The notes under the pieces: model-generated
Told to the model about the DNA's origin: nothing
Database searches by the model: none
Seen by the model: only the letters and a program-made list of their open reading frames with translations
In this document: positions 11,400 through 50,908 of the stretch, piece by piece
Layout: each line of letters opens with the position of its first letter
Numbering within the stretch: the first letter of the stretch is position 1
From: an uncultured bacterium
GTDB taxonomy: Bacteria > Bacillota > Clostridia > Lachnospirales > Lachnospiraceae
Direction: 5' to 3'
Length of the DNA stretch: 64,000 bases
Assembly: GCA_947383005.1 (NCBI GenBank)
Contig: CANDBT010000011.1
Location: 44,664 to 108,663 of the forward strand
Translations under genes and position numbers: made by a program

Positions 11400-11617
11400 G
11401 CGGGGAAGCTGGCATGGGGTTGGGCGTCAAGCATGCTTGTAAGCCCAATCCTGTGCCAGCTTCCGCATCGGATGGATATCCGATGCTTCTTGTCCGGCAC
11501 AGAGGGACAAGAAGATGCCGGTCTGAATGATTGAGATAAGTCACCAGACGGCGGGGAAGCTGGTACAGGGTTGGGCGTCAAGTTTGCTTGTAAGCCCAAT
11601 CCTGTGCCAGCTTCCGC
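11400..11617. repeat. Composite palindromic repeat cluster with two copies of a 67-bp hairpin
   Basis: Two near-identical long hairpins (11400-11466 and 11551-11617) have arms of the type GAAGCTGG...GGGTTGGGC and GCCCAATCC...CCAGCTTC around the loop core GGCGTCAAG...CTTGTAAGCC. Between them are a short palindrome (GCATCGGA...TCCGATGC) and a hairpin with arms TTCTTGTCC and GGGACAAGAA. The same modules, rearranged, recur in the element at 28901-29051. The cluster starts 12 nt after neuB. An apparent upstream coding extension of the next gene through this DNA is not real. Confidence 0.8.
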
Positions 11618-11667
11618 ATCATATGGCAATATATTGTAAAGGGAATATACATATAAGGTGGTTTACA

Positions 11668-20927: not shown

Positions 20928-21119
20928 GTACTGTTCACGGCCCGGTTGTTCACTACGCTGAACAGTTGTTGCTGTTCACACCATGACTAATCACTACGCT
21001 GATTAGTCATGAGCCAATACAGTTAAGGGGCCAAAGCATATGCCCCGGTCTACACTCCGTTTTGGCCGGTTCAGAATAAGCGCCACTGGCGCTTAGAACC
21101 CGAAGGTGATTCAAAAAGG
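20928..21119. repeat. Palindromic element of the GTTACTGTTCACA family, degenerate copy
   Basis: Read left to right it matches the reverse complement of the element at 31501-31693: a CTGTTCACACC end, the hairpin CCATGACTAATCA / TGATTAGTCATG, GCATATGCCCC, a CCGGTCTACAC...CCGTT stretch, the hairpin around GCGCCACTGGCGC with GGTTC / GAACC arms, and then CCCGAAGG. The far terminal repeat is lost. An extra TGTTCA / TGAACA hairpin precedes it. From 20801 to 20927 I see no gene. The element ends about 130 bp before the carboxypeptidase gene. Confidence 0.8.
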
Positions 21120-28900: not shown

Positions 28901-29051
28901 GTTACTGTTCGCAGGGGCGCATCTTCTTATCCGGCTACGCCGGACAAGAAGCATCGGGCGTTCGCCCGATGGGAAAACCGGATGAAAACAGTCTTACAAG
29001 CAAGTTTGACGCCTGTTTTCATTCGGTTTTCCCCGCCCCGTGAACGGTAAC
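28901..29051. repeat. Composite palindromic element, GTTACTGTTC-type ends with nested hairpins
   Basis: Outer arms GTTACTGTTCGCAGGGGC (28901-28918) and GCCCCGTGAACGGTAAC (29035-29051) are imperfect inverted repeats. Inside are three hairpins in a row: CTTCTTATCCGGC / GCCGGACAAGAAG, CATCGGGCG / CGCCCGATG, and GGAAAACCGGATGAAAAC / GTTTTCATTCGGTTTTCC around a CTTACAAGCAAGTTTGACGC loop. The inner modules match those of the 11400-11617 cluster and the ends match the 31501-31693 family, so it is a hybrid of two families. It lies 18 nt after the DUF6062 stop. Confidence 0.85.
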
Positions 29052-31500: not shown

Positions 31501-31693
31501 GTTACTGTTCACAGGTACCCTGTGAAGGTAACCGCATATGCCTATATTAAATTGCCTTCGGGTTCTAAGCGCCAGTGGCGTTTGGTTAGAACCGACCGGA
31601 ACGGGGTGTAGACGGGGGCATATGCTTTGCTCCCATAATGATATTTGCCCATGGTTAATCAGCGGAGTGATTAGCCATGGTGTGAACAGTAAC
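31501..31693. mobile_element. MITE-like palindromic element with perfect 13-bp ends and 8-bp direct repeat
   Basis: The ends GTTACTGTTCACA (31501-31513) and TGTGAACAGTAAC (31681-31693) are perfect inverted repeats. AGGAATTT flanks it directly on both sides (31493-31500 and 31694-31701), as expected of a target-site duplication. Inside are three hairpins: the left end folds on itself (GTTCACAGG / CCCTGTGAA), GGTTCTAA...GCCAGTGGC...TTAGAACC, and CCATGGTTAATCA / TGATTAGCCATGG, separated by CATATG motifs. There is no reading frame of note. It sits 27 nt after the PAP2 stop and 16 nt before the scpA promoter. Confidence 0.85.
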
Positions 31694-32580: not shown

Positions 32581-32646
32581 TTCGTTATTGAGCGCCGGAT
32601 TTATTAAACAAAGCAGCAGGATAAGATAAAAATGGGTGGGATTTGC

Positions 32647-33354
32647 ATGGATGATCGATTTGATGACAGGGATGAGGAAATTGATATAAAAGCTGCAGGG
32701 AAGCCGCCGGGCGAGGCATGGCAGCAGATGGAAATAGAAATCGGGCAGCCGGAAACGGAAGAGGAGGTTCATGAAGGGGATTATCCGGCCGGCGACTGGG
32801 AGGCGATTGTGGAAGCCGTGCTTTTTACCATGGGAAATTCCGTAGAGCTTCGGCAACTGGCAGCAGCGATTGATCAGAGTGAGCGGATAGCCAGGCGGGT
32901 GGTGGAAAGCTTGCAGAAACGCTATCAGGCAGAGAACCGTGGGATACAGATTATCGAATTGGACAATTCTTTTCAAATGAGTACAAAAGCAAAATATTAT
33001 GAAAATCTGATTCGGGTGGCGGCAGCGCCGAAAAAACATGTGCTTACTGAGGTAGTATTGGAAACTTTATCAATTATTGCGTATAAACAGCCTGTGACAA
33101 AGATTGAGATTTCCAAAATACGGGGTGTTTCTTCAGATCATGCGGTGAACCGGCTTGTGGAATATGGTCTGGTTTATGAAGTCGGCCGTCTCGATGCGCC
33201 GGGAAGACCGGCATTGTTTGCCACCACGGAAGAATTTTTGCGGAGGTTTGGTGTCGGCTCGCTGGTTGATCTGCCAAGTATGAACCCGGAACAGGAAGAA
33301 GAGATTGCGCAGGAAGTAGAACAGGAGCTTCAGATGAAGCTGGTTTTGCCATGA
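32647..33354 (+). CDS. scpB: Segregation and condensation protein B
   Basis: About 235 residues. After a 45-residue acidic leader come the tandem winged helices of ScpB: EAVLFTMGNSVELRQLAAAI, GIQIIELDNSFQMSTKAKYY, and LTEVVLETLSIIAYKQPVTK with IEISKIRGVSSDHAVNRLVE and GRLDAPGRPALFATTEEFLR. ScpB dimers bind ScpA and regulate the SMC ATPase. ATG 32647 is favoured because GGTGGG lies just upstream. The last codons and stop overlap a 31-bp sequence that is repeated after the inserted palindrome at 33493, so the insertion left the protein end unchanged. Confidence 0.96.
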   Translation: MDDRFDDRDEEIDIKAAGKPPGEAWQQMEIEIGQPETEEEVHEGDYPAGDWEAIVEAVLFTMGNSVELRQLAAAIDQSERIARRVVESLQKRYQAENRGIQIIELDNSFQMSTKAKYYENLIRVAAAPKKHVLTEVVLETLSIIAYKQPVTKIEISKIRGVSSDHAVNRLVEYGLVYEVGRLDAPGRPALFATTEEFLRRFGVGSLVDLPSMNPEQEEEIAQEVEQELQMKLVLP

Positions 33355-33492
33355 CTAATCACTTGCTGATTAGTCATGGGCCAGAATAGTTACGGGGCAA
33401 GGCATATGCCTCATCGCCGTAGGCGATTTTAAATAGGCATATGCTGTTGCGTTGCTACATTCACAAGGCACCTGTGAATGTAGCAACGCAAC
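33351..33492. mobile_element. MITE-like palindromic element inserted at the 3' end of scpB, with 31-bp flanking duplication
   Basis: The segment is a variant of the 31501-31693 family: hairpin ATGACTAATCA / TGATTAGTCAT, GGCATATGCC, a short ATCGCC / GGCGAT hairpin in place of the longer middle hairpin, AGGCATATGC, and a terminal hairpin GTTGCTACATTCACA / TGTGAATGTAGCAAC. It is flanked by a perfect 31-bp direct repeat (33320-33350 and 33493-33523) that encodes the last residues of ScpB. After one differing base the match continues for TGAC, so both copies provide a stop codon. Confidence 0.85.
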
Positions 33493-33523
33493 AACAGGAG
33501 CTTCAGATGAAGCTGGTTTTGCC

Positions 33524-33553
33524 TTGACATTGGCTGGAATAACATGTTACTAT
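33524..33553 (+). promoter_or_regulatory. Likely sigma-A promoter for dut
   Basis: TTGACA at 33524-33529 and TACTAT at 33548-33553 with an 18-bp spacer, 33 nt before the dut ATG. The -35 box starts exactly where the duplicated scpB end stops, so the promoter survives on the right-hand side of the insertion. Confidence 0.65.
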
Positions 33554-33586: not shown

Positions 33587-34021
33587 ATGGTAAAGATAAA
33601 GGTTAAGTATTTAAGTACTCATACGGAAAAATTGACTTATATTGAGGGAAAATCCGACTGGATTGACCTGCGGGCTTCGGAAGATGTGGAATTGACGGCA
33701 GGGGAGTTTCGTTTGATTCCTCTGGGAATTGCTATGGAGCTTCCCCGGGGATATGAGGCTCATATCGTTCCGCGAAGCAGTACTTATAAAAATTTTGGAA
33801 TTATTCAGACAAATCATATGGGGATTATTGATGAAAGCTATTGTGGGGATCATGATCAGTGGTTTTTCCCGGCATATGCGTTGAGGGATACCCGGATTTG
33901 TGCAGGGGATCGGATATGTCAGTTCCGCATTATGGAACATCAGCCTACGATCCGGTTTGAGGAAGTGGAAAGTCTGGGACATGAAGACCGGGGCGGTTTT
34001 GGAAGCACCGGCAGAAAGTGA
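33587..34021 (+). CDS. dut: dUTP diphosphatase (trimeric dUTPase)
   Basis: A 144-residue enzyme that hydrolyses dUTP to dUMP, keeping uracil out of DNA and feeding dTMP synthesis. The conserved motifs of trimeric dUTPases are visible: [13 protein letters not shown] (motif 1), [13 protein letters not shown] (motif 2), [17 protein letters not shown] (motif 3 with the catalytic Asp), RICQFRIM (motif 4) and the C-terminal RGGFGSTG arm (motif 5). Length is normal. ATG 33587 is preceded by AAGGA-type sites. An upstream open extension passes through the inserted palindrome and is not real. The next gene starts 9 nt after the stop. Confidence 0.95.
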
Positions 34022-37678: not shown

Positions 37679-37823
37679 TATAACTTATCAGAATTTGCAA
37701 AGCAAATTTTGATAAAAGGCGCGTCCTTTGCGCCGTAAATCCGATTACAGGGTTCGCGGAGCGGTTCCTGTAATATAACTTATCAGAATTTGCAAAGCAA
37801 ATTTTGATAAAAGGCGCGTCCTT
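37679..37823. repeat. Three-hairpin palindromic element (about 99 bp) plus a truncated tandem second copy
   Basis: Unit one (37679-37777) contains three hairpins: TATCAGAATTTGC / GCAAATTTTGATA, AAGGCGC / GCGCC, and ATTACAGG...CCTGTAAT. Its first 50 bases are repeated exactly at 37774-37823, overlapping the end of unit one by four bases (TATA). The same 99-bp unit occurs in reverse orientation at 60686-60784 with compensating changes in the first hairpin. A 32-base piece recurs at 62312-62343. The region 37609-37939 holds no gene. Confidence 0.85.
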
Positions 37824-50875: not shown

Positions 50876-50908
50876 GTTACTGTTCACAGGCGCCCTGTGA
50901 ACGCCTTT
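50876..50908 (+). terminator. Half element of the GTTACTGTTCACA family acting as terminator
   Basis: GTTACTGTTCACAGG starts at 50876, and GTTCACAGGCG pairs with CCCTGTGAAC, followed by GCCTTTTTAAC. This equals the left terminal hairpin of the 31501 element without the rest. It lies 40 nt after the permease stop and just before the antiporter promoter, so it may end the upstream transcript. Confidence 0.75.

Follow-up and report, generated by a model that had tools for sequence, protein, structure and literature searches.

A remodelled MITE-like element between scpB and dut of a Lachnospiraceae genome: an insertion scar with a possible in-place repair of the scpB end

The window, i.e. the whole stretch of 64,000 nucleotides that was analysed, carries scpB (32632..33354, forward strand, 240 aa) followed by dut, which codes for dUTPase (33587..34021, forward strand, 144 aa). 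The named relatives of this ScpB are, among the matches listed, mostly from Lachnospiraceae and from related gut isolates and MAGs. The junction between the two genes contains two identical 31-mers in direct orientation (33320-33350 and 33493-33523, with a start-to-start spacing of 173), which enclose a hairpin-rich insert of 142 bp (33351-33492). This confirms the arrangement that had been described in the original prediction. When a 20-mer of the repeat was searched with up to 3 mismatches, three sites were found in the genome; two are exact and both of these are at the scpB-dut junction, and the third has 3 mismatches. Other repeats occur elsewhere in the window. Exact 36-bp repeats (11434-11469 / 11585-11620) are found within two hairpin-bearing units of 95 nt, which are 85% alike and represent another repeat family, and there is an exact 50-bp direct repeat (37679-37728 / 37774-37823) with copies 95 bp apart.

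ScpB ends with ...LQMKLVLP*. The stop codon TGA (33352-33354) is outside the 31-mer and is provided by the inserted element, within a CCATGAC that is similar to the CCTTGAC of the dut -35 region. Because of this resemblance between element and target, the repeat can be extended over CC[A/T]TGAC to 36 nt at 97% identity (one mismatch). The right 31-mer ends one base ahead of TTGACA (33524-33529), the first hexamer of a promoter-like site TTGACA-18-TACTAT (33524..33553, forward strand) with 10 of 12 matches and an extended -10, there being a TG before the second hexamer. The promoter scan alone is weak (1 site versus 0.7 expected in shuffles), but a TTGAC block recurs upstream of dut in 9 of 22 relatives from the same genus. 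The promoter-like site is intact to the right of the element and dut keeps a candidate promoter. Thus, the earlier claims that ScpB retains its end and that the dut promoter is spared both hold, with the refinement that the stop codon does not belong to the 31-mer. A terminator scan gave 2 sites versus 0.3 expected; both correspond to the same small palindrome of the right 31-mer, read once on each strand, and were given no weight.

A search of the genome with the insert resulted in 47 matches, including its own place and a palindromic self-match. The copies share terminal inverted repeats of 13 bp, and the family ends are GTTACTGTTCACA ... TGTGAACAGTAAC. The exact 13-mer GTTACTGTTCACA occurs 108 times in the genome (57 forward, 51 reverse), and its reversed control does not occur at all. 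Allowing up to 2 mismatches and including nested alternatives, 58 end pairs were obtained from the fetched loci, a set that includes only part of the ends. Of these 58 pairs, 44 are flanked by a target duplication of 8 bp with no more than one mismatch (exact in 30 cases), and these 44 duplications represent 44 different 8-mers. The remaining 14 pairs include nested alternatives, one 7-bp repeat, and pairs without any duplication. In clean copies, the terminal GTAAC directly abuts the 8-bp duplication. The commonest forms of the family have about 144 and 193 bp, and the end pairs with 8-bp duplications span 28-239 bp and hold no transposase. Because of the shared ends and of the 8-bp duplications in 44 of 58 pairs, the family is MITE-like (non-autonomous) and follows an 8-bp duplication rule. 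According to the available part of PMC10969869, bacterial MITEs are short and non-coding and have terminal inverted repeats and internal hairpins; the family resembles them in being short and non-coding, with inverted terminal repeats, a fixed 8-bp duplication, many copies and hairpins. An element has indeed inserted at scpB-dut, and 31 bp is too long for the normal target duplication of this family, as had been suspected.

A clean 193-bp copy with an exact 8-bp duplication (AGGAATTT) is found within the window 5′ of scpA (31501-31693). The pair scpA-scpB is flanked by two family copies, this one upstream of scpA and the scpB-dut copy downstream. Further family ends in the window (20968-20980, 28901-29051, 50876-50888) have 0-2 mismatches, and 28901-29051 is a degraded end pair without an 8-bp duplication. 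In a wider search, with at most 2 candidates scored per genome, the family was detected in at least 5 of 397 genomes, the own genome included. When viral_contigs was scanned with an 18-base piece of the element and a 27-base piece of the 31-mer, neither gave a match.

Among the fetched loci of the own genome, there is no end pair 330-3300 bp apart that has an 8-bp duplication. Two loci of IS66 transposases (PF03050), the only transposase family examined, do not carry the family ends, with 4-mismatch matches at best. A 2.6-kb region between two ends (C12:28318-30933) was rejected as an autonomous partner, its longer ORFs being judged by eye to be resident genes. In genome G022, elements of about 338-340 bp (L273, L274) have the same ends, continuing GGCAATGTCAG, and no transposase was identified with them. 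Similar ends occur near the starts of several contigs of G022, suggesting a collapsed repeat; these elements and ends may lead to the parent IS.

The scpB-dut copy (33351..33492, forward strand) departs from its family in several respects. The left terminal repeat is absent: GTTACTGTTCACA is found at the left end of the other 20 aligned copies, either exact or degraded, and in the scpB-dut copy family sequence begins only with CCATGAC, where the left 31-mer ends. The place of the missing repeat is taken by 23 bp of the scpB 3′ end (33328..33350, forward strand). The right end reads ...GCAAC where the family has GTAAC and directly abuts AACAGGAG, the 8 bases with which the 31-mer starts. GCAAC is opposite GTAAC in two alignments, one of which had mixed copy orientations and was replaced by a third, in which the family end is shifted to the right by a few bases. 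It is likely that GCAAC is an altered GTAAC, a reading of five bases with one change at a rearranged right end. Compared with the bacterial MITEs of PMC10969869, as far as covered by the available text, the scpB-dut copy differs in having lost one end and in its 31-bp flanking repeat, and the parent IS was not found. At those fetched loci of the own genome that contain one of six exact core strings, a comparable flanking repeat is not present in any other copy. The longest flanking repeat there is a single 13-mer in L073, with copies 150 bp apart, which resembles the family's own interior. Thus, the 31-bp repeat is peculiar to the scpB-dut locus and is not a property of the family.

The copy is identical to the consensus in 107 of 129 positions (17% off). 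Among 17 aligned short-form copies, none is more than 86% identical to it, and partial matches to others reach 89% over 62 bp. As the element has diverged while the 31-mers are identical, the element looks old and the repeat looks young. Either the element is old at scpB-dut and the copying is recent or the source copy had already diverged.

When treated as RNA, the region 33320-33523 forms a much more stable structure than 200 shuffled versions of it (z -10.1). A first hairpin (CCATGACTAATCA/TGATTAGTCATGG, 33349..33379) has perfect arms of 13 bp (33349-33361/33367-33379), and its initial two bases also belong to the left 31-mer. A further hairpin is found around GCATATGCCT/AGGCATATGC. The right hairpin (33442..33496) has arms of 24 bp (33442-33465/33473-33496) which pair to 96% and is private to the scpB-dut copy. 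It contains extra, mutually complementary 8-bp blocks, TTGCTACA and TGTAGCAA, one in each arm, which among 21 aligned copies are found in the scpB-dut copy but in none of the other 20. A 15-mer holding the right-hairpin block was exact only in the scpB-dut copy when 24 genus genomes were searched, and one other genome has a single match with 1 mismatch. From Rfam, ten matches were obtained, all below threshold, of which nine are to microRNA models and one is to a snoRNA.

In a pairing structure drawn from the scpB-dut copy itself, all Watson-Crick pairs (35 of 35) are retained by this copy although it is 83% identical to the consensus; such full pairing is not special as five other copies also have 35 of 35. 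Covariation was analysed in an alignment without the 143-bp subfamily (L235, L259, L260) and without the 193-bp form. Cells changed on both sides are in excess over shuffles (13 versus 4.4, 0/500), the numbers for pairs changed on both sides are 4 versus 2.5 (36/500 shuffles) and those for pair types 16 versus 15.3 (197/500 shuffles). Thus, family-wide covariation is mixed and is above shuffles only in part. One pair of the central stem is C-G in most copies, T-G in two and T-A in the scpB-dut copy alone. This change from C-G to T-A may represent two ordinary steps, and the clearer mark of palindrome correction by template switching is the 8-bp block present in both arms. Private complementary changes in both arms are what is expected of a quasi-palindrome product, and, as in the cases treated in the available parts of PMC7202029 and PMC8794818, imperfect hairpin arms have become better complements by complementary blocks in both. 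The scpB-dut case differs from these in that a terminal hairpin of a mobile element is affected, beside a second inferred switch which spans the target duplication.

The junction was compared between related genomes, as had been suggested for a test of the insertion. Of the 23 other genus genomes, each representing one species, 22 gave scpB (G001 gave none), with ScpB proteins that are 68-84% identical to that of the window. All 22 junctions lack the element, with matches of 10 bases at the longest, and none has a second repeat copy. A search for the terminal repeat at the junctions, with G013 left out and blind to copies without a left end, also gave none. Direct repeats of 13-27 bp do occur in the scpB-dut stretch of G018, G007, G004, G002 and G015, and these have other sequence. 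While the relatives' junctions are free of the element, the empty site with a single 31-mer that had been named as proof of an insertion was not encountered, as the 31-mer is not present as one block in any of the 22.

Its parts do exist in relatives. In G005, G008 and G013 (loci L200, L208 and L221), the scpB end and GGTTTTGCC, which precedes the -35 box, are both present but are kept apart by a variable scpB tail. In the window, the LQMKL end and GGTTTTGCC are fused at 33340-33350. As the parts are separate in relatives, the fused 31-mer must have arisen first in the lineage of the window, where the variable tail was probably lost before the present structure formed. LQ(M/L/I)KL ends the shared part of ScpB in 14 of the 22 relatives, and its loss may have a fitness cost.

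In six relatives (L200, L205, L208, L211, L212, L221), the 3′ part of the scpB coding region reaches into the TTGAC block upstream of dut. In three of these genomes, the scpB stop codon is inside the block (G005, G008, G021), and in the other three scpB is read through it (G016, G023, G013). In 10 of the 13 relatives without a TTGAC block, scpB appears from the alignment to extend past the dut start. G013, which is among the nine with the block, has a dut that looks truncated (L221, G013:C19:49700-50900); only the C-terminal 20 residues match, and the promoter looks intact.

We give an even chance to a scenario in which an ordinary, 8-bp-duplicating insertion of the MITE-like element at AACAGGAG was followed by a template switch or conversion that restored the scpB end. 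The about 144-bp form of the element would have inserted in the last codons of scpB after GAG, duplicating AACAGGAG. The proposed left duplication (33320..33327, forward strand) is inside scpB and ends, by a frame check, at a codon boundary, and the proposed right one (33493..33500, forward strand) is directly 3′ of the terminal GCAAC. The insertion would have parted scpB from its last eight codons, leaving these codons and the overlapping dut -35 box beyond the element. A single template switch or conversion would then have copied the displaced 23 bp (CTTCAGATGAAGCTGGTTTTGCC, 33501..33523, forward strand, upstream of the dut -35) back to the left side. The template would have been either within the replicating chromosome (slippage) or an empty-site sister (recombination). 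Copying would have entered via the identical 8-bp duplication AACAGGAG and left via the microhomology CC(T/A)TGAC, shared by the dut -35 region and the element, and the left terminal repeat would thereby have been removed. The left junction falls on this 6-of-7 match (CCTTGAC/CCATGAC), and such matches are found for 5 of 3948 position pairs. ScpB would so have regained LQMKLVLP*, with a stop codon that is now derived from the element, and dut would have kept its own promoter on the right. The 31 bp would then be the sum of a normal duplication and the copied stretch (8 + 23). Separately, the right hairpin would have turned into a palindrome with hardly any mismatch, for which the known quasi-palindrome template switch is the most likely cause.

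The family, its terminal repeats and its 8-bp rule, the absence of the left end, a right end in keeping with the family, and the element-free junctions of the relatives are all directly observed. We infer the order of events, the switch and the initial interruption of scpB, as neither a true empty site nor a same-species intermediate was seen. Of the three mechanisms that the original prediction had offered, slippage or template switching at the hairpin comes nearest to the anatomy. An insertion at the overlap would part scpB from its end unless that end were present on both sides, and in the window both sides carry it. We tentatively propose that, after an insertion into the end of an important gene, the damage was mended with the element still in place, the 8-bp duplication serving replication as entry and a chance 7-bp near-match inside the element as exit. 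It is conceivable, if somewhat short of probable, that the lost codons were copied back and that the element was disarmed by losing one of its ends.

A one-step templated capture without any transposase is an unlikely alternative. A fork stalled at scpB-dut would have switched at CC(A/T)TGAC to a MITE located elsewhere, copied through its right hairpin, folded back, and re-entered the locus 31 bp behind its exit. The missing left terminal repeat, the lack of a duplication of 8 bp only and the perfection of the right hairpin would then result from one event, and the 6-of-7 match at the left junction fits this as well. However, no donor is seen, as the best of the 17 aligned short-form copies is 86% identical and the private 15-mer of the right hairpin is exact in the scpB-dut copy alone among 24 genomes. 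Capture also gives no reason for the right 31-mer to begin precisely behind the terminal GCAAC, and the overlap at the right junction was judged by eye to be about 1 clear base.

We consider it quite unlikely that the element inserted at GTTTTGCC, ahead of the -35 box, with the left terminal repeat being lost between CC repeats and the upstream 23 bp being copied rightward. This agrees with the 8-bp rule of the family, and a deletion of 15 bp between CC repeats could account for the left part (GTTTTGCC/ATGAC), but two changes at opposite ends are required. In addition, the right end must lose its GTAAC-GTTTTGCC border and gain 23 bp that by chance start after GCAAC. In a profile of the target sites, AACAGGAG scores 1.25 and GTTTTGCC -0.13; the median is 1.37 for the 44 sites that built the profile, and hence is inflated, and 12% of the window positions reach 1.25. 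The profile thus weakly favours AACAGGAG.

A true transposition with an abnormally long, 31-bp staggered cut of the target is improbable. There is precedent in elements of the IS1202 group, for which target duplications of 16-28 bp are reported in the available text of PMC10132070, and which share with the scpB-dut element the flanking by long direct repeats. However, the long duplication is a property of that group, while at scpB-dut it concerns one copy of a family that makes 8 bp and has flanking repeats of at most 13 bp at the other own-genome loci scanned; moreover, one terminal repeat is missing. More improbable still is a tandem duplication of the 31-mer with a later insertion between its copies, which was another of the earlier proposals. 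With the element landing on the border, the parts would come to stand in the order observed, but an insertion exactly there would be expected to add a further repeat of 8 bp, which is missing, and none of the 22 relatives has a second copy without the palindrome, a comparison that is limited by their ScpB identities of 68-84% and by the 31-mer not being one block. An element that targets gene 3′ ends and carries such an end to regenerate its target, which had also been proposed, would preserve the gene end and stop codon but is hardly credible, as the element does not include the 31-mer, whose 20-mer core has exact matches at scpB-dut only, and as the 8-bp duplications of clean copies all differ.

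In the literature, no mention of GTTACTGTTCACA was found, and titles and abstract starts on MITEs in Lachnospiraceae yielded nothing related. Among the matches listed for MITEs, long duplications and template switching, the titles and abstract starts describe no such repair, which is not proof of its absence.

In summary, the scpB-dut structure is a real and legible insertion scar of an ordinary MITE-like family, its mechanism combines known processes, and the in-place repair is interesting but unproven. A puzzling 31-bp duplication becomes readable as a short, normal target duplication joined to a copied stretch of the gene's own end. A gene end which overlaps the -35 box of the next gene, as it does in 6 of the 9 relatives that have a TTGAC block, can withstand an insertion into the overlap, and after the insertion the functions of scpB end and dut -35 box reside on separate copies. 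If this is general, insertion followed by flank-templated repair would be a route to the fixation of MITEs at gene ends that would be marked by overlong flanking repeats. MITE-rich genomes can be screened for this signature, a repeat above the family rule together with one missing terminal repeat and junction microhomology.
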